In this document: piece after piece, positions 701 through 25,725 of the stretch
How the letters are laid out: each line of letters starts with the position of its first letter
Position numbering within the stretch: the stretch's first letter is position 1
Source of the DNA: Orbilia blumenaviensis
Taxonomy: Eukaryota; Ascomycota; Orbiliomycetes; Orbiliales; Orbiliaceae
Direction of reading: 5' to 3'
Length of the DNA: 64,000 nucleotides
Assembly: GCA_036872755.1 (NCBI GenBank)
Contig: JAVHNS010000001.1
Span: 2,852,001 to 2,916,000, forward strand
Notes under the pieces: generated by a model
The model's database searches: none
Seen by the model: only the letters and a program-made list of their open reading frames with translations
Told to the model about the DNA's origin: nothing
Translations under genes and position numbers: made by a program

Positions 701-3700
701 TTATTTTTATTAAAAATTTTTATATTTTAAAAATTAAATTAAATATTTAAAATATAAAATAATAATATATATATTATTAAAATTTTATTTTTAATATTTA
801 ATTTAATTTTAAATATTATTTTTAAAAAAATTATTTTAATTATAAATAAAATAATTTTATTTTATTTTATTATTAATTTAAAATTATTAATTTTAAATAA
901 AATTATTTTAAATTAAAATTTAATAAATTTTTTTATATTAACAAAATTAAATTTATTAATATTTATAAAAAAATAAATATAAAAAAAAAAAATTAAAAAA
1001 ATTTTAAAATTTAATATTATTTAAAAAATCCAAATTATATATTATTAAAAATAAATTATTTAAATAATTTTTTTTATAGTTAACCAAAAATTATTTTTTT
1101 TTATTAATCAACATTAACAAAAACTTTAGCATATTTTTATTAAATTATAAAATAGAAAATTTATTTATTTATTTTAAAATTATTAAATAATTTAATTTAT
1201 TTTATATTTAAAAATTTTAAAAGATATATATTATTATTTTTAATAATAATTTTTTTAAAATAATTATTTATAAAATTATTTTTATATTTTTAATAAATAA
1301 ATATTTAAAAATAATTATAATAAATATTTTAAAAATTTTTTATAAATTAATTTTTAAATTTTTTTAATTAAAAAAATATAATTTAAATATTAATTAAAAA
1401 ATTTATTATATTAAATTTTTAAAATATAATTATAAAAAAATTTATTTTAAAATTTGATTAAATAATTAATTTTTAAAAAAAATTTATTATTAATTTATTT
1501 AATATATATTATAAAAAAAAATTAATAATTGTTTTTAAAATAAATTTTATTTAATAAAATATATTTTTTTTAAAATATAAAAAATTAATAAAAAAAAAAA
1601 GAAAATTTTAAAATAAATTCTTAAAAATAATAAATTAATTTTTTAATTTTTAAATAAAAAAATTTTTTACTAAAAATTAATTAATTTATATATTATATTT
1701 TTTTAAAAAAAAAATTTAATTAAAATTTTTATTTATATATATATATATAAAAAAAAAAATTATAATTTTATAAAATATATTAATAAAAATTTTTATAATA
1801 AATTTATTTAATTTTTTAATTTATTTATAAAATATTTTATATTATTTATATTAAAATTTAATAAAAAATTATAAATATATATTAATTATAAAAATTTAAA
1901 TAATATTATAATTAAAAATATTAAATCTCTATTATTAATAAATAAATTTTTTAATTATTTAATAAATATAAATTACTTTATTAAATTAAATATTATCAAT
2001 ATTTATTATAATATTAGAATAAATTTAAAAAAAGAATAAAAAATAGTTTTTTAATATTATTATAATCTATTTAAATATTTAATTATATTATTTAAATTAA
2101 TTAATGTATTAATTTTTTTTTAAATTTTTATAAATTATATATTTTAAAAGCATATAAATATTATTTATATTATTTATTTAAATAATATTTTAATTTTTAA
2201 TAAAATATTAAAAAAATATAAAGAAAATATTAATATAATATTAAAATTTTTTTAAAATTATAATTTATATATAATGTTAAATAAATTAAAATTTATTATT
2301 ATTAAATATAAATTTTTAAAAATTATAATTATTTTAAATGAAATTAAAATGGATTTTAAAAAAATTTAAATTATTTAAGATTAATTTTTTTTTAAGAATA
2401 TTAAAAAAATATAATTATTTTTTAAATTTTATAATTATTATTAATAATTTATTTAAAAATATAATTTTATATTAATAATATTTTTTAAATTTATTAAAAA
2501 ATAATTAAAATTTAAAATAATATTTAAAAAAATTTAAATTTTTAAAATTTTTAAAAAATTTTTTATTTTTGTTTTTATTTTTAAATTTTATAATTTAAAA
2601 TTATTTATTAAAATTAAAATTAATATTTTTATAATAATATTAAAAATTTGTTTATTTTAATTTTATAAAAATAAATAATAATATTTTATTATTTATATTT
2701 TTTATAAATTTAATATAATATAATTATAATATACTATTCATAATAAAAAATTAATAATTATTATAAAAATTTATTAAAAATAATATATTTACCTCTAAAA
2801 TAAAAATTTTTTATAATTCTATTTAATTATAAAAATTTTATTTATTTTTTAATTATAAAAAAATTTAGTAAATAGTAAATTTAATAATAGAAATTTTTTA
2901 ATAAATATAATATAAAAATAATATATTTTAAAAAAAAAGAAAATATTTTTGTAAATATAATAAATAGAAGATTAGATTTTATTAAAAATATTAAATTTAA
3001 TAAAAAAATAATTTTTAAATATAGTAATATTAAAAATTAGATTTTTATTAATAAATTTTTAAATTTAACAAAATATAATATTAAAAATAATTTTTAATAA
3101 AAAATTTTTAAAATTTATAAATAAAATTTTATTATATAATAAATTTTAAAAAAAAAAAATATATTATTTTATTTTAAATTAATTGATAAAATTATTATAT
3201 TTTAAAATTTGTTTTATATTTTAATTAAAAAATTTTAAAAAAAATTTATCTTTTTATATTATAATCATTTAATTTATAGTTATTTAAAAATTAATTATAT
3301 TTAAAAACTTATTACAAAAATTTATTTTTAACTTTAAATAAAAAAGCAAATTAAAAAATATATTAAAATTTATAATTTTTATTATAAAAATAAATTTAAT
3401 TAATATAAATTTTATGGAATTTTTTAATTATATAATATATTAAATATATTTTTTAAAATTATTATTTATAATTTTATATAAAAAATATTTTTAATATAAA
3501 ATTTTTTTATTAATAAATTATATAATAAAATATTAATTATTATAAATAAATTGATAAAAATTATTATTTTTATTTTATAAAATAATTAATAAAAAATTAA
3601 AAAATTATAATAAATTTATTATAATTATATTTTTTTTAAATATAAAATTTAATAAAAATATATTTTTAATTATAATTTTTTTTTTATAAATAAATATTAA

Positions 3701-4956
3701 CAATTAATTATAAATTAAATTGGTATTAAATTAAACATTATAATCAAAAATTATATTTAAATAAATAAAATTTTTAAAAAACTTATCCAAATTTTTGAAA
3801 TTTATTTTTAAAATTTTTTTAATTATATTTAAAATAATTAAATATTTTTTTTATTTATAATAAAATTTATTTATAATATTTCTCAACATTCAACTACTAA
3901 ATATATTTTATATAAAATATTAAGAAAATAAATACTTAAAATTATTTTTTTTTTTTTTATATTAAAAAAAATTATTCTTAAAATTAAAAAACATATAAAA
4001 TTAATAAAAAATACTTATAATATTTTTATAAAAAATTTTTAATTCTTATAAAAAAAAATAAACTATTATTATAATAAATAATAAAAAAAAATTTTAAATT
4101 TTAAAAAAAAAAATAAAATATATTTATTTATATAAAATTTAAAAATTAAATAATTTAATAAAAAATTTAATTTTTAGAAATTTAATTTATATATAATTAA
4201 AAAAAAATTTGGAAAATATTATTTTAAATTTAATATACTTAAATTAATATAAATATATAAAATATTTTATGTTTTAGTTTTAGAAAAAGTTTTTTTAAAA
4301 TTTAAAAAAGATTTAAATAAAATTAAAATTAAATATAATAATTATATAAAATATAAAATTAAAAAAATTTTTAATAAATTTAATAATAATAATAAATATT
4401 TTATTTATTAAATTATTTCTTACAAACCAAAAAATAATTTTTAATAATTAAAAAAAAATATTTTATTATAAATTATATAGAATTATTTTAAAAATAAAAA
4501 TTTATTTTATTAATTTAATATTTTTATATTTAAATAAAAATAAAAAAGATTTAAGAAAAATAAAAATTAATATATTTTATAGATTTTTAATTTATAAGGA
4601 TATAATTTTTTTATTTAATTAATTTTTATATTTATAAATTTTTTTTATAAATATTTATTTTTATAAATATATAATTTAAATAAATATTTATAATATTATT
4701 TATTTAATTATTTTTTAATTTTTTTTAGATATTTTATTTTTTTAATTAATAAAATTTTATATTCTGATAATATTAATAAATAATTATGTAAAAGTTATAT
4801 TAATAAAATAATATTATAAATTATTAAAATTAATAATTTAATATAAATTATAATAAAATAATAAAATATAATTTAATTTAAAAATAAAAAATTATAAATA
4901 TATAATAGGAAATTAATTAAATTTTAAATAATATTTTAAAGAAAATTTTTTATAAA

Positions 4957-6513
4957 AAATATAAAATAATTTTTATTTTACTTAATAAAAAAATTTATTA
5001 TATTTATTAAAATATTATAAAAAAAGTTAAATATTTTACTAAATATTAATAAACTTTTATTAATTTTTTTTTTAATAATTAAATCATTTTTAAATATTAT
5101 ATCATTTTTTATAATTTTTTATTTTTTATAAAAAAAAAATTTTTAATATTTCTATATAATTATTAAAATTTTAATAAATTAATATTTTAATTTAATTATA
5201 ATAGTATTAAATTTAATTAAAAATTTTATAAATTTTATTTAATTTTTAATAATTTTTTAATATATTATTTTATATTAAGTAAAAGTTTCTTTTAATTTTT
5301 TAAATTTTTTATTTTAAATTTTCATAATATAATTTATTAAAAATTTTAAATTAAAAACATTTTATAGAATGGAGAAAAATAAAAATTATTTATAAGAAAT
5401 TATATTATATTTTTTTATTTTATTTTATTTATAATAAATTTCATATTTAATATTTTTTTCTAATATAATATAAATATAACTATTCATAATATAATATAAA
5501 TATAAAATTATAATTTTTAAATTTTTTGATTTAAATTATTTAAGAAAAATAGTTTTTTTTTATTTTATTTAAATATAATTTTCTAATTTTTTTTTAAGTT
5601 TTTGAATTATATTTTATTATATAATTAAAATAAAAGATTTAATATTATTTTATATATATAAAAAAATATTTTATAATTTAAATTTTAAAATTTAGTTATA
5701 ATATAAATTATAATTATTTATATTTAATTTTATTTATATAAATATATAATATAATTATAAAAAATTATATTTTTAAATATATAATTTCTTATATATAAAT
5801 TTCTTTTAAATAATTTTTCTATATAATAAAATTTTATAAATAAATTTTATATAAAAACTTTTTATTTAATTTTATTATATTTTTTATATATAAAAAAATT
5901 TTATATAAAAATTTTTTTTTTAAAAGTTTTTTTTTAAAAAAAAAATAATATTATAATTAATTAAATTAAATATATTTTAACATATTAAATATAAATTTAT
6001 TTAATTTTAGATTTAATTTATAAATCAAATTTATAATATAAATATTTAAATTATAAATTTGGAAATAAATTAAATTAAAATTAAATTATTTGTAAATATA
6101 TTGTATTAATAATATATTTTTAAAATAAATTATATATAAAATATTATATATAACTTAATATATTATATATACATAACACCTACCTAAATATATAATATTT
6201 AAAATTTATAAATAATTTATATTTATATAAATAATATTTATATATATAAAAATTTTTAAATAATAATAATTTTAAGATTTTTTTTTAAACTTCATTAATC
6301 AATTTATTAATACTTAATATATTTTGTTTATTATTTTTATTTATTAAATTTAATATATTTTTATTAAGAGTTATATTATTTAATATTTTTATATTTAATC
6401 CAGTTTATCTTAAGAAAATAATCTAAATATTTTAAATTGAGAATACGATTAGCCAAAAAACGCTAGGCTGTTTTAGGAATTTCCTATTTAGGAAATACCC
6501 AGGACAGGTGTAA
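4957..6513. repeat. RIP-mutated repeat, copy 1 of tandem pair
   Basis: This 1,557-bp unit is directly followed by a second copy of the same length. The copies align over their whole length with very few length changes. Mismatches are C/T or G/A and go in both directions, so each copy was mutated independently. The right end (6,462-6,513) keeps a 52-bp normal-composition strip. On the minus strand that strip starts near TGTTACACCTGTCC or a close variant, which resembles the end of a retroelement LTR. No internal coding sequence or terminal duplication can be shown. Confidence 0.75.
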
Positions 6514-8070
6514 TATATAAAATAATTTTTATCTTATTTAATAGAAAAATTTACTACATTTACTAAAATATTATAAAAAAAATTAAATATTTTATTAAAT
6601 ATTAATAAATTTTTACTAATTTTTTTTTTAATAATCAAATTATTTTTAAATATTATATCATTTTCTATAATTCTTTATTTTTTATAAAAAAAAAAATTTT
6701 AATATTTCTATATAATTACTAAAATTTTAATAAATTAATATTTTAATTTAATTATAATAATATTAAATTTAATTAGAAGTTTTATAAACTTTATTTAACT
6801 TTTAATAATTTTTTAATATATTATTTTATATTAAATAAAAATTTCTTCTAATTTTTTAAATTTTTTATTTTAAATTTTTGTAATATAATTTATTAAAAAT
6901 TTTAAATTAAAAATATTTTACAAAATAAAAAAAAATAAAAATTATTTATAAAGAATTATATTATATTTTTTTATTTTACTTTATTTATAATAAATTTTAT
7001 ATTTAATATTTTTTTTAATATAATATAAATATAATTATTTATAATATAATATAAATATAAAATTACAATTTTTAAATTTTTTAATTTAAATTATTTAAAA
7101 AAAATAATCTTTTTTTATTTTATTTAAATATAATTTTTTAATTTTTTTTTAAATTTTTAAATAATATTTTATTATATAATTAAAATAAAAAATTTAATAT
7201 TATTTTTTTATATATATAAAAAAATATTTTATAATTTAAGTTTTGAAATTTAATTATAATATAAATTGTAATTATTTATATTTAATTTTAATTATATAAT
7301 TATATAACATAATTATAAAAAATTATATTTTTAAATATATAATTTTTTATATATAAATTTTTTTTAAATAAATTTTTTATATAATAGAATTTTATAAATA
7401 AATTTTATATAAAAATTTTTTATTAAATTTTATTATATCTTCTTTTAATAAGAAAATTTTATATAGGAATTTTTTTTTTAAAATTTTTTTTTAAAAAAGA
7501 AGATAGTATTATAATTAATTATATTAAATATATTTTAATATATTAAATATAAATTTATTTAATTTTGGATTTAATTTATAAATTAGATTTATAATATAAA
7601 TATTTAAATTACAAATTTAAAAATAAATTAAATTAAAATTAAATTATTTATAAATATATTATATTAATAATATATTTTTAAAATAAATTATATAGGAAAT
7701 ATTATATGTAGTTTAGTGTATTATATATATATAATATTTATTTAAATATATAATATCTAAATTTATAAATAATTTATATTTATATAAATAATATTTATAT
7801 ATATAAGGATTTTTAAATAATAGTAATTTTAAAATTCTTTCTCAAACTCCATTAATTAATTTATTAATATTTAATACATTTTGTTTATTATTTTTATTTA
7901 TTAAATTTAGTATACTTTTACTAGGAATTACATTATTTAATATTTCTATATTTAACTTAATTTATTTTGAGAGAATAATTTAAATATTTTAAATTAAGAA
8001 TATGATTAATTAAAAAATGCTAGGCTGTTTTAGGAATTTCCTATTTAGGAAATACCCAGGACAGGTGTAA
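6514..8070. repeat. RIP-mutated repeat, copy 2 of tandem pair
   Basis: This is the second direct copy of the 1,557-bp unit, abutting copy 1 with no spacer. It ends with the same 52-bp strip (8,019-8,070), identical to that of copy 1 although the other ~1.5 kb has been heavily mutated in both. The strip holds a hairpin: arms TTTCCTA and TAGGAAA around two bases. Tandem duplication is the simplest description. Two adjacent LTRs of a lost element is an alternative. Confidence 0.75.
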
Positions 8071-11040
8071 CATTTTTATTTTTAAATTTAATTATATATT
8101 TAATATTTAATTTCTTAAAATTATAAATTGTTTAACTTTTTAACTTTATTAAAGATCATATTCAATTAAAATTAAAATTTTTAATTTTTTTAAATTAAAA
8201 AAGATATTTTTTTCTTAATTCAAATTTTTTATTATTTTAATTTTTATTTTGTTATATATTTTATATAAGATAATATTTTTTTTAATATAATTTAAAAATA
8301 TAATTAATATAATTCTATTATTAAATTTATTATATTTTAATTCTTTTAATATTTTATATTAGCAAAAATAATTAAAAAATTTTAAATATAAAAAATTTAA
8401 TTTTTTTTTATTTATAACTTCCCAAAATAACACTCCATTAAATACCCTTTTTAAAGAAAATTTATTTTTAATATATACAGTTATAATTATAACTTCCCCC
8501 TAAAAAATAACTAATAATTTTAATTAATATAATATTATAATTATAATTATTATTAATATATTAATTTATTATTCTAAAATATTATTAAAATTTTAATTAT
8601 ATAAAAATAATAATTTAAAATTAATACTTTTTATTCCTAATAAATTTTTAAATTTCCTACTATTATAAATTAAATCATTATTATTTTTAAATTTTTTTAC
8701 TCTTAAAAATTTATTATATTATTTTATAATAATTATTTTAACTAATAATAAATTAAAATAATTATATATTTTAATTATAAATTTAATTATTTTAACTCAA
8801 ACTTATTAAAAATAATTATTAACAAAAACTATAAAATATTTAATTTCTTTTATAATAATTAATAATATACTTAAATAATCAAAATAAATCATTTTCTAAA
8901 ATTAATTATTTTTGATTATTTCTTTATTTTAATAATATTTTCTTTTTTTTTTTACTATTATACAAATTTAATATTATAATACTTTTTTTAAATTTATTTT
9001 TAAAATTAAATTTGTTAAAATTAATAAATTAATTAAAATTTAATAATTTATATAATTTAAAATATTATATTACTACATAAATTTTATGATTATAATAAAT
9101 TTTTTTAAAATTGTTTTTAAATTTTTTAAATTTTTTAATATAAATAAGTTAAAATTTGGGTTATTAATTTTATTTAATTAATTAATTAATGTTTTAATTA
9201 TATATAAAATCTGAATTCTATTATTTACTAAATATATTTTAATTATTAAATTATTTTTAGAGTTTATAATTTATAAGATTTTATTAAAGATGATTATATA
9301 TTTTTTTTAAATTAAAATTATAATTAATAGTAATTTTTAAATTAATTTAAATATTTAATATATTTTTATTTTTAAATTTAATATAATTTATGTTTTGTTT
9401 TGATTGTAAGTATTTATTGTTAAATTATTGATTATAATTATAATTATAAAATTTTTAAATAAAATATATTTTATTAAATTTTTTTTATTTATAATAAAGT
9501 ATATAAAGGTTTTTAAATTTAGTATTTAAAAAATTAAATTAATTAATTAATTAATAATTATTATATTAATTAATAAATTATTTATTTTATTATTATTAAA
9601 AAAGTTTTTAAAAAAATCATTTTTTGAATTTAAGGTATTATTTTGAGTATTATTTGTTTTTATGAGTGTTATATTTATTTAATAATTTTATTTTAATTTT
9701 CTTAATTATTTAATTATTTTTTTAAATTTATATTTTTTTATAATATGTTTAGGTTTAATATAATAATAATAATTTTTAATTATTTTTAATTATGTATTAT
9801 TTTTAATTATTAATTATTATTTATTATTTTTATTTTTATTTTTATTATTTTTTTCTTATTTGTTTTTTTTATTATTTTTTTTTTTATTTCTGCCTTTACC
9901 CCTACTTTTACTACCACCTCATTTAAAATTTTTAATTAATTGATAGCTAGTAAAAGTCAAATTAATTAAAATATTAAAAACATTATTATTAGAATATAAC
10001 TTAATATTTATCTAAAATAATTAATTTATTATTTTTTTAATAATATATTTTAATTATTTTGCTAATTAAATCTAGATTGATTTAATAATTATATTATAAT
10101 AATTTTAAATTCTATTAAATAATTTATTTTTAAAGATTTTATCATTAATAATATATAATATATTTTTTAATTATTTTTAAATAAGTTTAAATTTATTAAT
10201 TTATTATTAAATACTTTTTTTTTTCTTTATTTAGAAATTTATAAAATAAAAATATAAATTATTGGCTATATCATAATTAACTTTTAATCCATAAAAATTA
10301 TAAATTATTTTTTAAATTATTTTTGTTATGTTATAATAATTTAAAATTTATTAAACTATTTAACTTAAATTATTTATAAAAATTATATATATTTCATTAA
10401 TTTATTTTATTTAGGCTTGGTGCTTAGAGTTAAATTCTTCTAATTAAATCCTTTATTTAATATTAATTTTTATAATTATATTTTATATTAAATTATTTTT
10501 TTTATTAACCATATATAGTTTATTGTTGGGTTCAATTTTAATTCCCACACCTAATCATATTTATTTTTTAATATAAATAATTCTGAAAATAATTATATTA
10601 ATTTACAATTTATAATCATATTCATTATTAATTATTAATTTATATAAATTAGTAGTTTTTAATATTTTGATTATTTAAAATTTTTAAATTAAATAATTAA
10701 TTTTATTTAATTAAATATAGTTTCTATATTTATTATAAATATAAATTTTATTATAATTAATATTTATTTAAAATTATAATTTTTATATTTTTATATAAAA
10801 AAAAATTTTTGAAAAAAAGGAGTTTTTATATAAATATATAAAAATATTAATTTTATTATATATTTACTTCATAATTTAATAAATTAAATCAAATTTATAA
10901 TTTATTAAAATCTAATTATATATTTATAAATTAATAATTTAATTATTTTCTCAAACCATAATATGGTTTTAATCCTATTTATTATATATATAGAGATAAT
11001 TAGTATTCTTTTAACAAAGGTTTAATCTTTTACAAAATTT

Positions 11041-12428: not shown

Positions 12429-13602
12429 ATGGATAACTGTTGGTTCGTCCTGAAGCAGACTCACTACACTGCTCCAGATGTCGATAGCATGCGCAAAGGC
12501 AAACCCACGGGCCCAATATCCCTCGGACATATTATCCCCGACTTAAAACATCTCGACCAAGTCGTCAACGCGGAAACTATTGAGCCTTTCACAAGAGGCA
12601 TGCAAATCTGGCCAACAAGGCTGTTAGATTTCAAGTGGGGCAATACAACGGAAAGAGAGAACGCGGTTTTGGGCCATGCCGGGGTTCCGATAGCCGCTGC
12701 CGTAGGCTTGACAGTGGGTGCGGATGCTAGTTTCGCGTTCCGCCAGTCTGTCAAAAACTACTGGGAGTTTCGGCATTTGGACCGCTATATTGTTCAACCT
12801 ACTTCGGCATATGTGAACGATTGTCTGGAATCTGAAGAGGTCGCCAAATATGTTGAAACAATCAAGACACTAGGCTTCTGGTCTATATACATGATCACCG
12901 GCATCATTGTGGCCCGGGGAGGTGGTAGGAACACCGTAACTGAGAGTCATGGCCGCGAGGTTTCTAGTGGAGTAAACGTGTAAGTTTATATATTTTCGCA
13001 TCTGCATCGATTAGTTCATCTTGATCTGTCACAAGACTTGTAAGGTATGAGGGTGTTTAGTTCCCTGCTGGTTCTGCGTGGTTACTAGGAATTTTATATA
13101 TGGTTACTATGTACGCGCTGAAGGGACTGTTGACTTAGTCGTGATAGAGGGTGGACCATATAGCTCGGTACCGGATGATCTTATAATTGCTTCTTGAATT
13201 TCACGATCGCAAGATTCGTCCTAATAGTCGAGTATTTGCTAACACCTTTCAAGGTCATTCCTAGAAGCAGTGGGGGCAGGGCCTGAGGTGGTAGTCTCTA
13301 ACTCCAAGAAACTTGAAGTAGAGGCAACTCATGCTACTGACTTTGTCTGGGCGATAAGACTTGCAAAGATTTCCAAGAATGGTCTCCAACGGGATTGGTC
13401 TATAAAGACAGTCTTTGACCGAGTGTCTTTTGGTGGGCAAAGAGCCCTTTTTTCTGATAAGCAGGACGAAATCGATGTTGAAGCCGTAGTAGCTGCTGAG
13501 GGCTCACGTTCGGATAAGTTTCAAGTTGTTGAAGATGGGAGCTTAGAGTCCGCTTTCGTTCTCTTTGGCCCAGATACTACTGATCCCGATTGCGACGGCT
13601 AG
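12429..13602 (+). CDS. Gasdermin-like pore-forming protein (HET-Q1/RCD-1 type), putative
   Basis: I read two exons, 12,429-12,979 and 13,254-13,602, giving 299 residues. The intron has a GTAAGT donor, a TGCTAAC branch site and a CAAG acceptor, and the phase joins exactly. The start is the ATG at 12,429, followed by a Trp-Phe-Val segment and a PTGPISLGHIIPDL motif near residues 27-40. Later come an aromatic stretch (NYWEF, ~residue 112), a WSIYMITGIIVARGGG strand (~157-172) and FVWAIRLAKI in exon 2. These resemble the fungal gasdermin-like proteins HET-Q1 and RCD-1, which are 250-300 residues, bind membranes and form lytic pores after release of a short C-terminal piece. The frame is intact with no disabling mutation seen. 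The next gene is a convergent subtilase, the partner type expected for HET-Q1. The assignment rests on memory of family motifs and on context, not on an alignment. Confidence 0.65.
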
Positions 13603-14098
13603 GATGCTATGCCTGTGATAGTTCTTTTTTTTTTTGAACCTTTTCTTCTTTATTTTCTTCTTTCTGACTCATTTCTGTCTTCTATTAAAATGCAGGTCTT
13701 ACCAATTGACCAACATTGCATAGTCATGGTGGTGCTTATTAGGGCTACGAGACTTATTAAATTGAGTGCAGCCATCGAGCTGGCTATCTCCTGGGATTAG
13801 TCTCGGTTCTACTGGGAGTATTAAATTCACTTTAAACCTATAGAGTAAGTAATTAGTCATGCATGAACATGTCCAACTCGGTTTAGCACTCAGATCGTAA
13901 AATAAAGAATCAGAAGGAAAATAGCATGGGCACAATGGAATCTTTCTCCAGTCTCTATCATAGTCATATAAATTCTAAGGTCAGAGATTAAGGCCATCAT
14001 AATTTCCCCTTGTAAAGCAGAACCTCGTTAGTTCTTAGTCTAGTAGTTTTACTGTACTATGGGTTTTACAAAGCTCATTTCGGATTCATTTCAAATAT
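13603..14098. other. Convergent intergenic gap between pore-former and subtilase
   Basis: About 500 bp separate the 3' ends of the two genes. The sequence holds pyrimidine runs (13,625-13,680) and AT-rich stretches typical of fungal 3' flanks. I see no gene, tRNA or repeat. Confidence 0.6.
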
Positions 14099-17000
14099 TT
14101 ATCTACAGTTTTTCAGTACTCTTGATAAATGGTCTCGAATCTCGATCCTCTGTGATTCACGGTCCCGGATATCCCAGGTACACTTTAGCAGACTCCAGGG
14201 GGCGATACAATAATATTCACCATCCTTGAAAGCCTTTGACAAGTCTTCAAATATTGCACTCATCTCGCGCTTTCGTTTAAGGTCATGAATATGATCACGG
14301 CAAATGGGCTGCCGCGAGAAATCAAGCAAACTGCCAGCTAACCCTGCAGCTATGGCACAAGAAATCGATGTTCCTTCAATAGTCCGCTGCGGGTGCCCAG
14401 ATGGTGCGGGCATTTTTACTTCTGCTCCTAGAATAGCAAAATTGTGCGTTTTCTGTCGATCGGGTGGGGGGTTTATGTGACTCGAATTCTTGTTCCCTGG
14501 AGTTGTTGAGAACATGCACATGACATTTTCCAGCCTGGCAGGGAATGCGACACTTTCTTGTCCGCCCCAATTTCCCGCTGCCGCAAAGATAAGGATCTGG
14601 TTAGCAGTGGCGGTATCTACGGCATCTCTTATTGGCCCATGCCACTGGGAGAAACCAAGGGCCATGACGATGATATCGACTCCATTTTCCAGGGCCCAAT
14701 TGATACTCTATATGTGTATAGGGAATTAGTGTTAGCGTTTTGACCAAAGAAAAGATCATCTACCACGTGGCCACACAAGGCTCTTACCTTCGCTACTAGT
14801 TTTGGTGTATTATCCTCTGCTCTTTTCGTCTTAAAAACTCGAGCAACGTAGACGTCAGGGGCATCAAAAACCCTAAAGATAAGGTTTACTGTGTCCGTAC
14901 CATGGCCATCGGTATCCCGCTTTTCCAAATCTTCATCATCTACAAAGTCCTTGTACATGCCCATCCCCATGTCCTTGGCGTAAGGGTCTTGTGGGGAAAT
15001 TCCGGTGTCTATTACAGCGATCTTAACTTTTTTTTTGTCATAATAGATGTCTCTTTCAGTCCTCCTTGCACGCAGCAGACCACTTAGTTGATCTACTTTC
15101 TCAAACCAACCCTCAGATGAGCGTTCGCTAGGCCTAATAATGGTTAACACCGCACGCAGAACTAGGCTAATCTCGGTGAACGTACTCATATAGCATAGTT
15201 GATCCGTCTACTCGAGAGTCGCTTCGGGTCTGGATTTCGGCGTCGACCCTCACAGTGTTTGTATCCAGTCGCAGAAGGGAGTGGACACTGTTTTGTATTT
15301 TTTGTATACCAACCTGTTGTTCTGGCGGCGGGCAAAATCTTTCCTGGAACAATTGATTGTTCGAGCGGTATTCAACCGTCCTGAATGTGAGACCAGTTAA
15401 TAATTTTAGAGATATGTAGCATTTAGTGCAGGGAATACCGCTTCAGTCGACACATACTGTAGAATATCTGGCCGGCCGCATAGTCCGCCCTTCGATGCTC
15501 GGGGCACTTCAGCGTGTAGTGAGATATGGGTGGTTTCTGGAGTGGTTACAGTCACGACAGGTGGGCTATTTGTTTGTGGAAAGCAGCGTCCCTTTGAGTT
15601 TTTTAAGTCTTCGTCCTGTATACACTGGTCAGCCATAGCCTTAACGCCCACGTTTGTGTGGACTGGAAGCACCTTAGGTTTTGCCTTGCGGGCCTCGTAT
15701 TCCCATTCGAGGAGGTCAGCCGCGGCTCCTTTAAACTTTTTCGCCAGCAACTGCAGAAGAGGTGAAAATATAAGGTTGTGAATTGCGACTAATTCCCGTA
15801 TACTGGTCTCAATATCCCGGAATCTTTTCTGTTTCAAGTTGTTATGAAATTCTAGACAGGCCTTAGCGATGTTGTAGTAATCATCTTCTACCTCCCCTGT
15901 ACCATCTAGATCATCTAAGGCCCGCTGTAGGGTCAGAAACGGGAGGGTGCCCTTTTCGTCATCTTCAGGATCTAGATCTTCATCGGTAGGAGGGAAGCGC
16001 CTCCCACTCTCGATTTCTAGTAGTCGCAAGCCGAACCCTAAGACGAGCGTATGGCGGTACAAGGGGTCGCAATCCTCCTCCTCGGTCATGAAGATACACT
16101 CAGCAGCAGCACAGGTACTCTCATCCATAGAGAGAGCACTAGCTAAGTACGGATGTTGATCTTGCGGTGCTTTCTGCGGTCCAGTCCACAAGATCAGTCG
16201 GTCCATGTCCCAAAGGTGCTGGAACCATCGAGTTTTGTGAAGGCAGAGCATCGAATGTGCGAGAAGCACTGGAATTTCCGCACGGCTTTGTTTTGTGGAG
16301 GTTACGGAGTTGGCGCCCTCCCCGTGTTCGTTATGGCCCCATATAAAGCTCGAAAGAGAGCCTTTCTTGAATTGGGCACACCGTTTAAAGTCAGAATCAC
16401 GCTCCCAGAGGCACTCGTCTTTGAAGTGAATGACCAACTTCTGTCGCCGTTTGTTTGATCTCCAGATGCTTTCGCAAATAATTTTATTTCCGCCTTGACT
16501 TGAATCTAGTTGTAGGCTTTTGTCCGGTTCCGAAGGCCTGTAAAGTGCCTAAGATTAGACTAGGAACCGAGAGTCTCGGAGGGTATCGGAGGAAGTTACG
16601 TACGCGGAAAGAAAACAAGAAATGGGATGCAACTCGTCCTTTTTCCGGCATACAGGTAAAAACATGTCAACCTGCGATTTGCCTGTAACCGCTACTCTTA
16701 TGAATCCGTCACGTCTTCTCTTACAATGTTCATCCATTTGCCTGACAACACTGGTGAAAAGTGTCTCAGCAACTTTGGCAAAATCTTGAGCATGTCGTGC
16801 TACAGTGATGCTTTCTTCGAGTGGAGTTGGATGCGACTCGTGTAAAATTGCCGGGAATGCCGCCGACACCGTTTTGTTCAGAGCCTCCAATCGCGTGTAG
16901 AGAACGGACAGGGCCTCTTCGTTCAAACTCGGATAGACGTAATCCCTTGTCCGAAGAGGACGCCCCGAAGGCTGGTGAACGAGTACCTGCAGTATTGACA

Positions 17001-17400
17001 GCCGAGGGAATATCTTTTGGTATTGTTAAATGAGTCAATGAGTGATAGAACTCAAAGAATATACACCTACTGTTTTTTTTTGATCCACCTGTAGCTCATT
17101 GTCAAGATTTAGGATATCCTCACTAACGGAACTCTCGAGTTTCTCAAGTGCTCCGCAGAATACTTCATGGATTTCTGATTCTTTCTCCTGAGATATTTCC
17201 GGGAGATGCGGGAGGTATAACTGTGGCTCAAGGTTGGCTCCAATCAATTCTAGCACACCGCGGATCAACGCCACAAGCCTGTTAATACTGCCATTTTTAC
17301 GTGTGGAGTCGTGAAGAGGGAGATTGTCGATAAACGGTGACAGCACTGATCCAAGTAGCTCCCAGTATACCCGGATGCATGGCCCAACGTCTAGGCTCAT
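14099..17400 (-). CDS. DUF7580-like / subtilisin-like (S8) serine protease, HET-Q2-like
   Basis: Best exon model on the minus strand: 17,400-17,071, 16,986-16,604, 16,537-15,458, 15,380-15,254, 15,171-14,788 and 14,707-14,099, about 970 residues. Donors include GTAGGT, GTACGT, GTATGT, GTGAGG and GTAAGA, and all phases agree. The fourth junction (15,253 to 15,172) uses a weak GAG acceptor and is the least certain. Residues ~1-560 look like the helical DUF7580-type region found in fungal immune-like proteins. The C-terminal third is an S8 peptidase: catalytic Asp in VKIAVIDTGIS, His in DTDGHGTDT and Ser in EGTSISCAIAAG are all present. In Podospora, a subtilase of this kind (HET-Q2) cleaves the gasdermin HET-Q1. 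The adjacent gasdermin-like gene makes that role likely here. It shares a 637-bp divergent promoter region with the NACHT gene. Confidence 0.8.
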
Positions 17401-18037
17401 CGCGAGCGTATGCCAGCAGGTGGAAAGAGCAAAGAATTCGAGCTTAACAAGAGCTGCACAGCTGTAAGAGGTTACCTAGGTAGTGACGGATCTCGAAAGG
17501 CTAGCATCGAAGACCGCCGTAGCTGAAGAGCGAATCTAAATAGCCTGGTCATGAATTTGGTCGGATGGAAACTTATTCAGCTGCCATTCGCCGCGGGGTA
17601 ACTACCCGCCGGACCATCATGCGCCGTGGATTTCCATTGGCTGTCTCTCACGTGACACAAATTTCGAGGCTGGTATAATTTGATACCAATCTTTGTATGG
17701 CACTCAAGTAGGCATATTTGTACCTGCATGTATATGGGAGAGGAGTGTATTTTCGCTCCGCATTTCGGCGATGGGGAATGCATAACAAAAAGACCCGCTC
17801 CTATTATCCTTCATACACTTACATCGTCGGAACAGTGTGGAATTCTACCACTACTATTAAACTACCTGTTGGAGGTTCAAGGCGGCACTAGCTGAGTTCA
17901 AGGGCAATTAGGTTCGTTACTAGTAGTTAAGCTCTAGAAAATGATATGTCAGAGACGAAATTCACGCTCGCCTCGTCAACGCGGCGTAATGGCTAGGGTG
18001 GAGCATGAATTTTTGCTGACAGCTAAAAGCACTTAAC
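17401..18037. promoter_or_regulatory. Shared divergent promoter region (subtilase / NACHT gene)
   Basis: These 637 bp separate the start codons of two genes reading away from each other, so both promoters must lie here. No specific operator or TATA box can be defended. Head-to-head placement would allow co-expression of the protease and the NLR-like receptor. Confidence 0.5.
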
Positions 18038-21000
18038 ATGATGACAGATACGCAAGACCAAATTTACGAACTTACAAAGGAGTGCAGTACCAATTTTCAG
18101 CGGGTCCTAATAACAACCACTGAAGGGTCATGCCACGAGTTTGTCAGTATACAACATCAGAGCTTTAGGGTTTGGATAACGACTATCGGGGCTTTGGCGC
18201 CACTGCGAGCGTCGCTTGACCATCGACTAAGGCAACATGGCCATATTAAACTTGCTGTAGTAGAATTGCTTCTTTTGATCAAAGATTGCCTTGATAATGG
18301 TGAGAACACTTTCTATCGTGTCAGCTCGCTCATTGTTTTCCATGCCTCTACGTTGTGGGAACCAGTTTGTGAGGCCAGTCTAGATACTTCGGAAGCAGAC
18401 TTCCATAGCTCATGGATACAGACTATTCCATCCTACATTTTTAGGATTCTAACCCCGACTTCTGCTTTTTAAGACGAAATAACGTTCTAACGCCTACAGG
18501 GACCGTGCTGATAAATAAACAACAGAGCCTTGTCTAGCCGGGCCCGAGAATGAGGTCGATAGTGCCCATCAAAATAAACCTGAGGATCCCCAGAGCTTCA
18601 TCAGCCAACATATGGCCCTGGAAAAAGCCGTTGAATCTCTCCATCAGTTGGCATCGTCTATCCGACGTGCATCAGTGCCAAACTCTAATTTCGACCTTTC
18701 AGCACGATTTTCTGAGGGGAATAAAATATATAACCAGGAGTTTAATTCTTTGGCAAAGATCTTGCTGAAATACAGATTCCCTGCAGCCAGTGAGTCCTTA
18801 CTCGACCAACTTGCGAAGTCAATGTCGCGCCGGCGCAATTTACTGCTATATATCCACCGACATGCTCAGAAATTAGGCCAGAATCGCGACCATGTAGCGC
18901 CACTAGTTGCCAACCAACCAAACCCGGCCCGAGAAGCGATCAGTTCGGGCCAACCTACAGGGTCTGCGATGCTCACCACGGCATTATCCGGCACCGCTAT
19001 GTTGCCACAGCACTCTCCATTCTCGGCCTATTCGCAGACCGAGGCTTCCAGATTTAGTGCTACCAAAAATATTGTGAAGTGGCAAGCTCAATCTTCTATC
19101 AACAGCAGCAAAACGGGGATGTGGCTACTTAATGACCAGGCGGCTTATCCGCCCGTTCCAAAATTCAACCCAGGTGACAAATTCTGTCCTTGTCCGTATT
19201 GTCTGCAACCACTTCCGACGGAAAAATTAGAACTGCGATATTGGAGGTTTGTCCTATATAGAATTACTTATTCCATCTTTACCCCTTAAAAGCACTAACA
19301 TAGGTCTAGGAGACATTACAATGACGATATCAAGCCCTTCATCTGTCTGTCTGAAGAATGTTGTGACCCTCTCCGGTTTTTTTCCCACATTGAAACTTGG
19401 AAAGAACACATGATCGGTCAGCATTCCGCGGACTGGACTCGGACGATTCACTCTACTGTATGGTACTGCGATATCGATGGGTGCAACCCCGACGAAAAGA
19501 TCTTCTATTCGCGAACGGGGTTCGAGAAGCATATAAAAGCGAAGCCTAAACGCATCTATTCAACGAACCAAATATCTGCGCTTGTCGTACGCAAGCAAAG
19601 GGGGCTTCTAAGGAATGCTATTGCTTGTCCCTTATGCGAAATGGAGGTCCATATAGGCTCTACAAGTAACATACCGTTGGAGGACCATATCGCGGGTCAT
19701 TTGCATTACATAGCTAGCCTTTGCGATCCCCAAATGGATGCATCCGCTCAGGAATCCAGCTATGGGAGTCAGTCTGCCGAGAAGAGAACGGAGAGAGGCT
19801 CGCAGACTGACCCAAAAACCGATTTGTTTACCAACGTCGAAAAAACCGAGCTCTTATTCCAAGACGAAGACCGGGCGCCAGAGCCAGGTGCAAGTGTAGC
19901 GGCTACTTACTATACATCTCCAGAGTGGGTGGATACTAGTGTCACAGTTGATCGCTCATATTTCATGGCTCGGGACTACGACCCTTCGCAAGATGTTATA
20001 TTACAGAGCATTGCCAGAGACCAGTCACCGGGGTTTTCTAATCCAAGTGCCTCATCCTCTGTAACATCTACGCAGATGGTTACCAATCTAAGATCCCGCA
20101 ATGAATATACTGTAGGATGGATCTGTGCACTATCAAAGGAGAAAACCGCAGCAATGGCGATGCTAGACCAGATACATTCTGATGCCTCCTTCCCATGGGA
20201 CAAAAACTTATACGCTTTGGGGTCTATGAGCAAGCGCAACATCGTTATAAGATGCCAATCAACTGGCCAGTACGGCATTCATTCGTCAGCCGCGGCCGCG
20301 AATGAAATGTTGCACAGCTTTCCTTCTATTAAAGTGATTCTGCTGGTTGGGATAGGCAGCGGCATTCCACCAAAAGTTAGACCTGGTGATGTTGTTGTCG
20401 GTACGCCAACGCAGGAATATCCTGGAGTAGTGCAGTGGGATTATGGGAAAGTGGTAATGGATGGCGGTTTTAAACGAACTGGCACTATAAATAACCCCCC
20501 AGGAGCACTGCTGGAAGCCTTATCTAGTCTAAAGACAATGCATGATTCAGGAAGAACCAAATTACCTCAGTATTTGGACAATATGAAAAAAATGCCAAGG
20601 TTTGCTCCAGAGCACACAGGGCCCGAATCCCTTACAGACCCTTTGTTTTCACCAAATAGCTCCTATCGCAGCCAGAGCAGCGAATTTGACCAGTTTACGA
20701 GACAGAGCAAGACAGGGAACACCCAGCCTAACAAGACTCAAAAAAAACCTGGAGAAATGCGCATTCATTACGTTCTAATCGCATCTGGCAATACGATCGT
20801 GAGAAATGCCGAGGTCCGTGATGAAATCAATGACACTCTCGGCGGGAATCTATTATGCATCGAGATGGAAGCAGCAGGGCTGATGGAATTCCCGTGCCTG
20901 GTTATTCGAGGCATCTGCGATTATGCCGATTCACATAAGAATAACAACTGGCAGGAATACGCTGCAGCTGTGGCCGCGGCGTATGCAAAAGAACTTTTGG

Positions 21001-22137
21001 AGTTTTTACCACCGGATGGCGTCAACACCGAACGCCCAATGAAAAGCATACTAGATCAACGTTAGTAGCCATTCCAACCCTTTATTTATCCAGACGTTCT
21101 CGAGTTTTCTAATTTGTATTGATGATATTGTATTAATAATATTGTATTAGTGCAAGCCGCTCCCACCACCATCGAAATATTGAAGCCCAAACTAAACAAA
21201 CAGGAGGACCTTGAAATCCTCAATTGGCTCACTCTGGTTGACTACGACGACCATCAAACTGACTACTTTGACGTGCGACATCAGGGAACGGGACAGCGGT
21301 TTTTAGAATCCATTGGGTATCGGAGATGGTTAGAGACAAGCGAACAGATATTATTTTGCTTCGGCACTCCTGGAGCAGGCAAAACAATTCTTACATCAGC
21401 AGTCGTTGACAATTTGCGTACCCGGTTTTCCGGCAGATCGGAAATCGCAATTGTATACATCTACTGCCACATCGGATGGAAAGACGAACAAGACGCGCAA
21501 AGCTTACTGGCAAGCATACTAAAGCAACTAGCGCGAGGTCGGTACTCTCTGCCAAGGGCTGTGAAAGAGCTACATGAGCGTCATAGTAAAGAGCGATGGA
21601 CACGGCCATCAATCGACGAGATTGTTATAGCTCTCGAGTCTGTGTCCAAAGAATACGAGAGAGTCTTCATTATCGTGGATGCACTTGATGAATTAAACTG
21701 TCGGCAGGCTTTTCTCTCATTACTTTTCCAACTCCATGCCAAATGTGATGCAAATATATTTGCCACTTCCAGATATATCCCGGGAGTCACAGAAGAACTT
21801 GGGAACAGTACAAAATTCGAGATTTCTGCCTCTAGATCTGATGAGGATATGCAAAAATATTTAGACGCTCAAATATCAAATTCGGGGGAGAAGTTGTTGA
21901 TGGACAACCGCGAAAAAGTCAAAACTCGGATCACAACAGTCGCCAACGGGATGTATGTTTCGTCCTTGCCCTACAATTGACAATCTAATTAATTAACATC
22001 TGTCTAGGTTCCTCCTCGCGAAGCTTTATTTTGAAGCAATAAAAAACAAAAAAACACTCACGGAGTTGGGGGACGCGTTAAGATTCCTTCCAACAGGGGC
22101 AAATACCCACATCTTGTCAGGCATTAGTAGAGATTAG
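18038..22137 (+). CDS. C2H2 zinc finger / PNP-UDP / NACHT protein, truncated NLR-like receptor
   Basis: Exons 18,038-18,299, 18,526-19,246, 19,304-21,060, 21,151-21,952 and 22,008-22,137 join in phase to about 1,223 residues. The first junction is less sure, because a better branch site (18,486) precedes an acceptor that would lead to a stop. An N-terminal helical domain (~1-300) is followed by a Cys/His zinc-finger block (~315-480, pairs such as CPCPYC and CPLCEMEVH). Next is a nucleoside-phosphorylase-like domain (~595-893, VGWICALSKEK, VGIGSGIPP, CIEMEAAGL). Then a NACHT NTPase (~914-1,200) carries Walker A GTPGAGKT near 983 and Walker B FIIVDALDEL near 1,086. In this family ankyrin, TPR or WD repeats normally follow NACHT as the sensor. 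Here a stop at 22,135 ends the frame and the repeat part is decayed downstream. It could still act as a receptor-less NTPase or be a dying gene. Confidence 0.8.
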
Positions 22138-22605
22138 TTCAGGCATATACAAAAACTACAAACAGCCTTTTGGCTTGACACATCTACGCTTAAAAAGAAG
22201 CTATGGCCAAGATTCGGGGCTAGAGCTCGGATTCTAAGGGTCGAGCAGATGGGACTCTGTTGTAAATCACCCACACACAAAGACCGCTTACTAGTTTAGA
22301 GCTCCAACATATGCAGGAGAAATCAATTGGTCTAACCCTTACCGAAATAGTATTTCTAATAATATTTCTCACGATACAAATATAATATTTGCATATATTA
22401 AATTAAATTATAATTGATAAAAAACAATATTACCCATACATTATATAAGACAAGAAATTTTTAACTAAAGAGAAAAATGATGGTCTTAGTATTAAAAGTA
22501 GTATCGCAGAAACATACATTACATATTTATTATGTATCATTCTTAAATAATTTCTGAGCACAAACAGCAGATATTTTATGGCTGGATTATGATCAAGCGC
22601 TCTGT
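22138..22605 (+). pseudogene. Decayed NACHT-to-ankyrin linker
   Basis: The gap between the NACHT stop and the ankyrin fossil is about 470 bp, close to the length of the winged-helix linker in intact fungal NLRs. Every frame is interrupted and 22,370-22,470 is AT-rich. No recognisable linker motif survives. I infer decay in place rather than a clean truncation. Confidence 0.45.
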
Positions 22606-23019
22606 ATGATTATGCAGCAAAAAGATTGGGGACACCATGCTCGACTCCCTGCAGTGGAGGGAGGGAGGTCGATTCTAGGACCTCTTGAGAGTGAGGCGAA
22701 AGCCTTCGCCTATAGCCAGGATGTAACAGATTCTAGACACTCCTCCTCTTACAATCAAAAGCAGGGCGTCGTAGATATTACGTTGAAGTTTCTTATGGAC
22801 AACACGAAGACTTTAACCTCGGCCAAGGTCTTATTCAACAATCCCCAGTGGCAATGTTATGAAATAAATCTTGCTGCTTATTGGGGCTTACAGCATACTA
22901 TGATAACGCTTGTTTGGGAAAGGTGTCCAGATTTTAAGGATACCAGGGAGATATTAGAAGACATAAATTATGTTTTATTCATGTTAAACAAAAGTGGGCT
23001 CGTTGGTAAGCTCGTGTGA
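22606..23019 (+). pseudogene. Ankyrin-repeat end of NLR, frameshifted fossil
   Basis: The 137-codon frame contains DWGHHAR near its start and NLAAYWGLQHTMITLVWERC later. In fungal NACHT-ankyrin proteins the repeats are introduced by a YAA-x-x-WGHHAR-type linker and by LHLAAYFG-type helices. The preceding residues LYDYAAK are found in another frame just upstream. Removing one base from the A run at 22,619-22,623 would place both pieces in one frame, so this is a single-base frameshift in a former coding sequence. Stops follow quickly and no complete ankyrin repeat remains. It is collinear with and downstream of the truncated NLR gene, so it is best read as its lost sensor domain. Confidence 0.65.
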
Positions 23020-24326
23020 CCAATTAAATGTAGGCGATATCATGATATCTAAATGATAAGTTACTGTTGATTTTTAGCAGGCGCCTAAAATAAAACCAGT
23101 TGCATAGATGTTGAGCTCGGGCTATACTATGCTGCTCACTAGACTACGATGTTTTATTACTACGACCTTTTGAGTATGTCCCTCTAACGGAGTATCATAT
23201 ATATAGCCTTTAAACAATTCTCTCGCTTTACGAGACCTATATGCAGAAACTTTCTAAGGCATCCAAATATTTACGTAATTATCTAACCTAGAACGCGAGC
23301 CTGTTGTGACCGAACAATTACCTTTTGCCAGCGTCCTGCTCATTCTGGAGATGTGTTGACCGTGTGGTATCCCGCCCACCATTGCGTTTGTTCGGTTCGG
23401 CCTAACCACTTAATATATAGGTAATATATTAAAATATCATTGTATTACTAGTAGCGGTATATTAATCAGGTTGGAAAGGATAAACGTACTGGTAACATGC
23501 GGCGTAGTAGGTCTACCCGAGTTTATCGAAATTCCAGGCTTGAACTTAATCAAAATCGAGGTTTCAGGGTAATTTATAATTTCACACAGGCTCAGCGTTT
23601 TGTCGAGTACCTTGAACTCCTGGTTATTTAAATCTAACTGCTTTTGGAGAGCTAAACAATGAGAAATACGGTAGTGGACTAGCTGTGATATAAGTCAGCA
23701 AGTAGGTAATTAAGTAGCAAATCAGGTTGCGTGGGTACCTACCGTAGGGGGTTTGGGTACTTTTCTGGGACTGCTTTCGGATATTAAAACATTTTAAAAG
23801 GAAAGCAAGCCGTCTTATCCTCTTTCGAATCGCTATTTATACTGTTTTAAGTTCCCTGTTTTCTATAAATCGTCTTGAGAAACCAGCTAAAGCCCTGTAC
23901 GGTAGGTACTTTGGAACTGTCTATTCGGTGGGTGATTGAACAGGTGACCCTATATCTACTAGGTAGTTAGACCTCCGTATCCAGGACATTGATTACCCAG
24001 TTGCCAATTTATAAGATACCTAGTGCTGGAAATATAACTTAGAAATAGCCATCGACCTTTCGTTAGTAGTTCATCTTCACGAAGTTTCATATCCTCTGTC
24101 TCCATCGTCGCTATCGATATCGTCATCACGCTTATCTCCTCAAGTACAAGTACGGCGACCAGTTTGCATTAGCTACAAAAGTGGATACCTCCTCCATTAT
24201 AATCATCTAAAAAATTTCTCTCCCAGCTGCCAATGTCAACTCAAGCAGTCCCTAAACGAAGACTATATAGATAACTACATTATATATTGCCACACATCCA
24301 CACGCACACCGCATAAACTGGCCACT
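23020..24326. other. Intergenic, nothing recognised
   Basis: About 1.3 kb without a credible frame. It contains several TACCTACC/GGTAGGTA-type short motifs, which recur in gene-free parts of this window, and may include further eroded remains of the NLR. The last ~150 bp carry the upstream region of the RING gene. Confidence 0.5.
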
Positions 24327-25725
24327 ATGGATATCAACTTGCGATGCAACTCTATTCCATGCAGGGCAGTCCTGGATCATTTCGCCGTCGTTACAACATG
24401 CAGTCATATATTTTGCACTACCTGCGCCGATAGCCACCTCACTGCACAAGCACCGTCCTCTCGTCGTCCTAACTCGGTCGCTCCAACTTGTCCAGCCTGT
24501 CGGGCAGTATTGGAAAACCCTGACGATATCGTCAAGACCAACTTAAATCCACCTGATGACTATAAAACATCAGTTCTCAGCGGCATGAGTCCGACCCTGA
24601 TCCTCGAAATTGCCGGCCGTGCAATAAGCTTTTGGACCTACCAGACCAACCAGGAGATGTATGTGGCCACTATATGTATTCTATCAAATTAATTTCAGGC
24701 AGGATATTGGCAGAAGAGGTGCTAATCTTATGAAGTTTCTACCAAGAACATTTATTGAAGGAGTCGACACGAAAGTTTGGCATTCTCAGCTCTCAGCTCG
24801 ATGTAGTTCTCCGTGAGGCCAATGCCAAAATTGCTGATCTAGAAAACAGTCTTCAAGGTATGTATGCTCCAATCAAGCCTGAAATGGAAAACCCGCAGGA
24901 AAGATATCTAACGCTGCCTACTCGTTTAGCGCTTACAATCGAAAACGAGACAATCTCTCGCAAAAATCGCGAACTAGGTGATGCACTTCGCGAGAGATCA
25001 CGAAGGCAACTGGAGCTCCAAGACAAATATGATAAGTTCAGACGTAAGTCTTTGATGACCCATGTGCAAGCAGTTACAGGTTCCGCGAATAGGCCACCCA
25101 ATATGGCCAATCAGCCCTTTGGGCCACCACCACCACCACCACCACCGCCTCCGCCATTAGGTTTATCGAATAATAACGTTCGGTTAGACGAGTTGAATCC
25201 CGCCCTCGGTCGCCAGAACTACCAGGGAAATGGTGGCGCCGGCCCATTGCCATTTACCGAAAGGGAGAGATTGACTATTCCAAGCGGTGCGGGGAACATC
25301 GAGCGGAGAGAAGGCAGTATTAGCGATGGGAATAGCGACGGTGGGAGAGGAGTTAGCTCACGATCGCGTATCCCCATGCATGGAAGGATTGGAAGCGCCG
25401 GTGGTAGACCATGGAACACTGGGATTCCTCGAGAAAATATAGGTATGTTTGGAAATTCTCATACCATAATGGCGCATTCTCTTATGCTAACACCCGTGTA
25501 TCTCTAGATGGCATCACGACACCTATGCCTGGGCAAGCCCATCGGCAGCGGCTCGTACAAATCCACAGTAACATGAATAACTCAAATAACGGATATGCTG
25601 GAGCGCAGAACTTGGAGCTGAAACAAGCTCAATCTAGGGTTGGAGGTGTTCCTAGGCCGATGAGTTCTCAACGGCAGGCATTAAATGGAATGACGCCAAA
25701 TATTGGGTGGTCCCCATTTTGTTGA
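24327..25725 (+). CDS. HEI10/CCNB1IP1-like meiotic RING protein
   Basis: Exons 24,327-24,658, 24,736-25,442 and 25,508-25,725 join in phase to 418 residues. Introns have GTATGT donors and GCTAAT/GCTAACA branch sites. Residues ~7-65 form a RING-like Cys/His pattern (CSHIFCTTCAD, then CPACRAVL). This is followed by the family signature NPPDDYKTSVLSGMSP and by FWTYQTNQE-I-FYQEHL across the first junction. A coiled coil follows (~115-200), then a low-complexity tail with a polyproline run near residue 240. HEI10 proteins are SUMO/ubiquitin E3 ligases on the synaptonemal complex that mark crossover sites. The match to the family's N-terminal architecture is strong. Its presence implies a meiotic life cycle, but says nothing about the neighbouring immune cluster. 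Confidence 0.88.

Follow-up and report, generated by a model that had tools for sequence, protein, structure and literature searches.

Do three adjacent genes of a fungus, encoding a gasdermin, a protease and a receptor-like protein, form one pathway of regulated cell death, and what would the third gene contribute to it? This question is raised by a 64,000-nucleotide stretch of the genome of Orbilia blumenaviensis (C1:2852001-2916000, hereafter the window). The species is an Orbiliomycete, and its relatives are nematode-trapping fungi. The window holds, in this order, a gasdermin gene (+ strand), a DUF7580-subtilase gene (- strand) and a C2H2-PNP-NACHT gene (+ strand), tagged TWF730_000810, TWF730_000811 and TWF730_000812 at NCBI. 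The protease gene lies tail-to-tail with the gasdermin gene, and the third gene lies head-to-head with the protease gene. A first-pass annotation, made from the sequence of the window, had placed the genes in this order and orientation, which the gene models, the Pfam matches and the NCBI tags all bear out, and had read them as a pore-former, its protease and a NOD-like receptor (NLR). We give a probability of about 0.62 to the reading that the cluster is a three-gene regulated-cell-death module of receptor, DUF7580-subtilase and gasdermin. On its separate parts, the protease would very probably cleave the gasdermin, that the three genes belong together in one module is very likely, and the third protein is probably an activating sensor rather than a restrainer. 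The genome searched comprised 42.46 Mb in 23 contigs (C numbers below). The search scored the best candidates only, so all locus counts are lower bounds. Published work is cited from excerpts of the papers.

The gasdermin and its C-terminal tail

The gasdermin gene (12429..13602, + strand) has two exons (12429-12979 and 13254-13602) with GT-AG splicing and encodes 299 aa; our model is identical to TWF730_000810. No Pfam model matched the protein at E values up to 1. A phmmer search of solved structures matched residues 1-250 to RCD-1-1 of Neurospora (8jyz, E = 8.9e-69), and RCD-1-2 was matched with E = 8.3e-57. An AlphaFold model built from 29 sequences had a mean predicted local distance difference test score (pLDDT) of 67 and a predicted template-modelling score (pTM) of 0.64. 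Foldseek aligned this model with two chains of the RCD-1 pore (E = 2.6e-22 and 2.9e-22, target TM-score 0.81 and 0.87), and further matches were a bacterial gasdermin, a Trichoplax gasdermin and GSDMD pores. A chance resemblance, considered in view of the missing Pfam family, is ruled out by the RCD-1 match in both sequence and fold. The gasdermin identity that had been proposed for this gene holds, and by its sequence and predicted fold the gene is unambiguously a gasdermin of the RCD-1/HET-Q1 type. Protein searches found 51 homologues; those with a named source organism are, we take it, all from Ascomycota.

Residues 251-299 (13453..13599, + strand) extend past the RCD-1 match as a tail of 49 aa and 5.19 kDa, which is acidic (14 D/E vs 3 K/R). 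The HET-Q1 gasdermin has 278 aa and loses about 5 kDa (40 residues after F238) to HET-Q2 (PMC10989679). Because the tail lies beyond the RCD-1 match and is similar in size to that of HET-Q1, the window gasdermin is as expected for one controlled by a protease. Judged from its sequence, it has the short C-terminal tail of a HET-Q1-type gasdermin. This tail is presumed to be the inhibitory piece that the protease cuts off, at a site which is likewise presumed. The cluster thereby resembles HET-Q1/HET-Q2 of Podospora anserina, where a short-tailed gasdermin also lies beside an S8 subtilase and the tail is likewise about 5 kDa (PMC10197012, PMC10989679, PMC12881547). RCD-1 of Neurospora crassa is like the window gasdermin over residues 1-250 and in its fold, but it works through two allelic variants without proteolysis according to the excerpts, and the match to it ends before the tail, whereas the window gasdermin has both a tail and a protease neighbour.

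The DUF7580-subtilase

The protease gene (14099..17400, - strand) was modelled with six GT-AG exons (17400-17071, 16986-16604, 16537-15458, 15380-15186, 15133-14788 and 14707-14099) and a product of 980 aa. The NCBI model TWF730_000811 has 970 aa and differs in two splice choices. Pfam recognised DUF7580 (E = 1.4e-32) and Peptidase_S8 (E = 2e-20), and the translation contains the S8 triad motifs DTG, GHGT and GTS. A profile of the protease alignment matched subtilisins with a best E value of 6e-27, and the best 60 of its 139 matches were exclusively subtilisin-type proteases. With an S8 domain, the triad and a gene adjoining a gasdermin gene, the protein is by sequence and position a Q2-like protease.

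A kinase-like fold was considered for the DUF7580 part and is left as a bare possibility, since the pLDDT there is 27-44 and the best profile matches are the subtilisin-type proteases just described. Elsewhere in the genome, one open frame (C6:1327659-1329851) combines a protein kinase domain with a weak DUF7580 match, a hint that DUF7580 may accompany kinase-type proteins.

Recurrence of the gasdermin cluster in the genome

Queries from all gasdermin loci found four in the genome, namely the window, C6:770.8k, C8:283.4k and C11:1119k. The paralogues share 23-34% identity over the matched stretches, which argues that the clusters are old units; the window and C8 proteins did not retrieve each other. 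An S8 subtilase adjoins the gasdermin at all four loci, and the full trio with a divergent third gene is present at three. The rough odds of an S8 neighbour at 4/4 loci are 3e-10, a figure that assumes 30 S8 loci and independence and serves as a guide only, as paralogues are not independent. The grouping is thus more than chance, and the expectation that the trio would recur as a unit was confirmed at these three loci and, by locus tag, in O. javanica.

The C11 locus repeats the layout of the window: its gasdermin is on the - strand, its DUF7580 and S8 frames are on the + strand, and its C2H2 gene, divergent from these frames and again on the - strand, carries the NACHT-type NPHP3_N (E = 5.8e-15) and ankyrin (ANK) repeats. 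At the C6 locus the gasdermin and the DUF7580 and S8 frames are all on the + strand, and the C2H2 gene diverges from them on the - strand; the DUF7580 and S8 parts were read there as consecutive unspliced frames. The fourth locus (C8:280152-284211) is a simple two-gene cluster, in which the gasdermin lies beside a short subtilase without a DUF7580 match. A frame upstream of it has a short hydrophobic stretch.

The recurrence of the trio, in this genome and in relatives, suggests that sensor, protease and executioner are encoded apart in a cell-suicide pathway, a division of labour also known from mammals.

The third gene and its truncation

The start codons of the protease gene and the third gene are separated by 637 bp in the gene models (17401..18037), and this interval is a possible shared promoter. 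The third gene encodes an N-terminal helical region (18038..19246, + strand; exons 18038-18299, then 18526 or 18538-19246), a C2H2-type zinc-finger region (approximately 19304..19999, + strand), a purine-nucleoside-phosphorylase-like (PNP) match to PNP_UDP_1 (20208..20996, + strand; E = 1.8e-10, profile positions 33-224 of 233) and a NACHT-type NTPase (21151..22137, + strand; exons 21151-21952 and 22008-22137). The last was recognised by NPHP3_N at 21285-21773 (E = 1.1e-32), while the NACHT Pfam model itself fell under the cut-off; the motifs GTPGAGKT and VFIIVDALDEL are present in the translation. The zinc finger received no Pfam call above the cut-off. Its Cys/His pattern is conserved across nine aligned third-gene sequences: 15 Cys/His columns are kept in at least seven of the nine, 14 of them in the finger region, and the nine include both of the CHAT fusions described below. 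A break at the N-terminus, between the frames at 18300 and 18526, was considered and rejected, as the NCBI model places an intron there and the O. oligospora orthologues align across it.

The relatives match the window protein over its N-terminal part only. The match ends at residues 558-592 in three O. oligospora proteins (48-52% identity), at 562 in O. javanica (51%), at 560 in Purpureocillium lavendulum (46%) and at 472 in Hypoxylon (46%). Beyond it, Pfam recognised NACHT-WD40-ANK in Purpureocillium and a kinase match in Hypoxylon, and two further proteins join this N-terminus to the caspase-like CHAT protease, as TPR-CHAT in Conoideocrella luteorostrata and as CHAT in Fusarium acutatum. 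Since the relatives agree in the N-terminus only and their C-termini differ, the zinc-finger N-terminus is the constant part. By this comparison, being an NLR is not what defines the third gene: the NLR is one of several interchangeable C-termini attached to a constant helical/zinc-finger N-terminus. The first-pass annotation was therefore right about the NACHT-type domain in the window and too narrow in naming the third gene an NLR, as the orthologues share about the first 560-590 residues only.

The window receptor is also short. TWF730_000812 has 1183 aa and stops directly past the NACHT domain at about 21980, and our spliced model reaches 22137. No Pfam family above the cut-off was found for C-terminal repeats in 22558-23016. 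The gene thus has the NACHT-type NTPase of a tripartite NLR without recognised C-terminal repeats, which the C11 paralogue has in the form of ANK. Two short matches (E = 0.002 and 3e-5, two-sequence search) in 22266..23019 (+ strand) resemble the post-NACHT region of the C11 paralogue and may be decayed remnants. These weak matches suggest that a longer receptor has been lost from the window gene. The PNP and NACHT domains named by the first-pass annotation are therefore present, in a receptor that ends early. With such an end just past NACHT, the receptor may be dead, deregulated or dependent on its PNP and zinc-finger parts.

From this arises the rival that survives best, a module decaying in this strain, with a receptor pseudogenised near an AT-rich block and a remaining pair that may be a leftover of the allorecognition type. 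The early stop and possible remnants would fit it, as would the AT-rich DNA on the gasdermin side, which extends for some 17 kb or more, and the routes from pseudogenisation to allorecognition described in passages of PMC10197012. On the other hand, the gasdermin and protease genes have open frames with canonical splicing, and profile matches were obtained for both PNP and NACHT. We regard decay as doubtful.

Divergent DUF7580/C2H2 pairs

DUF7580 matched 16 stretches at 13 places in the genome. The N-terminal/C2H2 part of the third gene, searched with four queries (window, C5, C11 and C12), was found at ten places (C1, C3, C4, C5, C6:765k, C6:1866k, C10, C11, C12 and C14:272k). Each of the ten lies upstream of a DUF7580 gene that is encoded on the other strand, with 1.5-3.6 kb between the match edges. 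The helical N-terminus is matched at eight of them, and the window query for this region (18519-19286) alone matched six places, all divergent from a DUF7580 gene. The naive chance of 10/10 divergent pairing is 7e-32, for which the required independence is false through shared ancestry. An arrangement kept through such divergence is itself informative.

The pairs differ in the enzyme joined to DUF7580. An S8 domain is present on the DUF7580 gene at C1, C6:767k and C11, which are the three pairs with a gasdermin. A PNP domain is present at C3 (in the next frame, unspliced), C4, C5, C6:1864k and C10. No second domain was recognised on the DUF7580 genes at C12 and C14; Pfam found no HeLo-type N-terminus on these two genes, and none is claimed. 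Four gasdermin queries gave no match at the seven pairs without S8. In one of the pairs (C6:1862377-1872579), a DUF7580-PNP gene diverges from a C2H2 gene that has NACHT and ANK frames behind it, and neither a gasdermin nor an S8 match is present. The receptor at this locus is closer to full length than that of the window.

The same pairing would equally be expected if the third protein were a restrainer, either a guardee or an antidote, that holds the DUF7580-effector in check until its loss or modification frees the protease, so that the pair would be close to a toxin-antidote or guard pair. An inhibitor of the DUF7580 chassis would explain both the 10/10 divergent pairing and the swapped effector domains as well as an activator does, and in the window a protease that looks intact stands beside a truncated third gene, which means that this strain survives with an incomplete receptor. 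Against this, the NACHT, ANK and WD40 C-termini are typical of sensors, and the fusion of the same N-terminus to CHAT proteases would be expected of an activator or scaffold no less than of an inhibitor. A restraining role is unlikely on this balance.

Pairing in other species

Synteny in other species was read from locus tags and same-size contigs in the protein search rather than from mapped coordinates. The gasdermin and protease tags are consecutive in all three strains with both listed: TWF730 (000810/000811), A. megalospora TWF281 (011051/011052, both on a 2,210,310-bp contig) and O. javanica TWF718 (009856/009857, both on a 2,686,109-bp contig). The protease and C2H2 tags are one or two numbers apart in all four Orbilia strains with both listed. 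They are 811/812 in TWF730, 005132/005131 in O. oligospora TWF192, 006908/006906 in O. oligospora TWF970 (both on a 356,667-bp contig) and 009857/009859 in O. javanica TWF718 (the 2,686,109-bp contig again). For TWF192 the printed contig sizes differ, each being the longest of a cluster. Both proteins of Purpureocillium lavendulum are on an 886,084-bp contig. These tags and contigs indicate that the protease/C2H2 pair is present in other Orbilia and in Purpureocillium. Four of the nine listed proteases (TWF281, TWF569, Cercophora and Fusarium falciforme) have no same-strain C2H2 protein among the 29 listed, a list that collapses clusters and has limited sensitivity.

Gasdermin and protease might alone form the unit, with the N-terminal/DUF7580 part of the protease as the sensor and the C2H2 gene as an unrelated neighbour. 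Excerpts of reviews do describe two-gene clusters with multidomain proteases as sensors, and the C8 gasdermin is accompanied by a short S8 only. However, four queries found the N-terminal/C2H2 part of the third gene nowhere but divergent from DUF7580 genes, and its pairing with the protease in other species is indicated as well, which makes a two-gene unit improbable. It is very improbable that the C2H2 protein is a transcription factor that acts on the shared 637-bp promoter and sets only the dose of the protease, as its zinc-finger-like Cys/His pattern and the divergent arrangement might suggest, because its PNP, NACHT, ANK, WD40 and CHAT C-termini are those of intracellular receptors.

Proposed mechanism and points that weigh against it

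We propose that in the three-gene module the acidic C-terminal tail of about 49 residues keeps the gasdermin inactive. The DUF7580-subtilase would be its dedicated activating protease, as HET-Q2 is, and removal of the tail would allow the gasdermin to oligomerise and form pores in the plasma membrane. The third protein would be the upstream receptor that, once triggered, activates the DUF7580-subtilase. Its constant helical/zinc-finger N-terminus may contact the protease at DUF7580, and its interchangeable C-terminus may sense the trigger, being PNP-NACHT here and NACHT-ANK, NACHT-WD40-ANK or unclassified elsewhere. As the NLR part in the window stops past NACHT, this receptor would be dead, deregulated or acting via its PNP and zinc-finger parts. 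Of the three-part module proposed by the first-pass annotation, the linkage is demonstrated by the recurrence of the trio, while the sensing and the control of the protease by the third gene are to be read as conditional, as are the cleavage, the pores and the direction of control.

Several observations weigh against the three-gene module as set out here. The first group concerns the receptor. The window NLR is truncated, no Pfam domain was found in the two scanned pieces of the third gene in the C6 trio, and two O. oligospora proteins and one O. javanica protein gave no Pfam family above the cut-off and no NACHT, so an NLR is not constant. No C2H2 gene was found in the 9.4 kb read at C8, which means that the third gene is not universal, and no A. 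megalospora C2H2 protein is among the 29 listed. The second group concerns the pair. The DUF7580 part through which contact would be made is the poorly predicted one, and no C2H2 match accompanies three of the 13 DUF7580 places (C17, C14:907k and the weak C6:1329k). At C12 (E = 1e-6) and C14 (E = 0.001) the match is confined to the finger part, and the C12 N-terminus used as a genome query retrieved only itself. Finally, the ten linked copies may share ancestry and would then not be ten independent events.

Genomic surroundings

The region left of the gasdermin gene is AT-rich, with a GC content of 1.5-8% in 2-kb bins over positions 1-10000 of the window and 2-11% in 1-kb bins over the preceding 7 kb (C1:2845001-2852000). 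The block is at least 17 kb long, its left end was not reached, and it fades at 10-12 kb of the window, just ahead of the gasdermin gene. Possible identities for it are a centromere core and a repeat-mutated block. On the other side, a RING-finger-like frame (24024-24689, + strand; zf-C3HC4 E = 1.6e-4, barely above the cut-off) adjoins the cluster and is apparently unrelated to it. A search of phage DNA gave no match, as expected for a fungus.

Relation to known systems and meaning

About 80% of fungal gasdermin genes are reported to lie near protease genes, mostly S8 and some CHAT, in clusters of two or three genes (PMC10197012, PMC12881547, PMC10989679). The linked proteases are described as putative sensors with several domains; some are NLRs ("contracted" pathways), and others are fused to kinase-like domains (PMC10197012, PMC12881547, PMC10989679). 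NLRs with an N-terminal CHAT or S8 domain lie beside gasdermin genes (PMC9815663), and CHAT proteases are reported as the second class by which gasdermins are controlled (PMC10197012). In Sordariales, head-to-head NLR pairs are rare (13 of 225 two-NLR clusters), and zinc fingers occur in 57 NLRs, 34 of them of the C2H2 type and mostly C-terminal (PMC12258605). The control and the stimuli of the fungal proteases that activate gasdermins are called an open question in PMC12881547.

A gasdermin beside an S8 protease is thus already published, and the third gene looks new within the literature searched. A separate C2H2 receptor divergent from the protease at gasdermin clusters is not described in the excerpts searched, which come mainly from reviews; the term DUF7580 was found in no paper of the literature searched, and none of its papers has both "gasdermin" and "nematode-trapping".

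The comparison with HET-Q2, a 388-aa S8 protease in the excerpts, differs in that the window protease is a DUF7580-S8 protein of 970-980 aa with a separate divergent C2H2-(PNP-NACHT) partner. Contracted fungal NLRs with a built-in S8 or CHAT domain beside a gasdermin likewise encode NLR, protease and gasdermin functions together (PMC10197012), whereas in the window the S8 and NACHT domains are on separate divergent genes, the layout that passages of PMC10197012 give for mammals. The mammalian inflammasome, caspase-1 and GSDMD are also separate as receptor, protease and gasdermin, but there the comparison is an analogy only, as the window has a subtilase instead of a caspase, another receptor N-terminus and a short gasdermin tail. 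Plant head-to-head sensor/helper NLR pairs similarly consist of divergent genes, with a variable receptor and a signalling partner (PMC12258605). Unlike these, the window pair is not two NLRs, and the helper role falls to a DUF7580 protein that carries S8 or PNP.

The divergent C2H2 receptor gene that accompanies DUF7580-subtilases is a concrete candidate for the controller of a gasdermin-activating protease. Ten related pairs in one genome, with swapped effector and receptor parts, make this control step directly testable. The fusions of the C2H2 N-terminus to CHAT connect two types of pathway, subtilase and caspase-like, by an upstream domain that both have in common. For the Orbiliaceae, the chances are even that there is a whole family of divergent helper/receptor pairs, in which a DUF7580 chassis carries interchangeable death-linked enzymes (subtilase or nucleoside phosphorylase), a helical/C2H2 N-terminus carries interchangeable receptor modules, and a gasdermin is the third gene when the enzyme is a subtilase. 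If this is true, these fungi would have an uncontracted pyroptosis pathway, with a layout analogous to the mammalian inflammasome and to the paired NLRs of plants.

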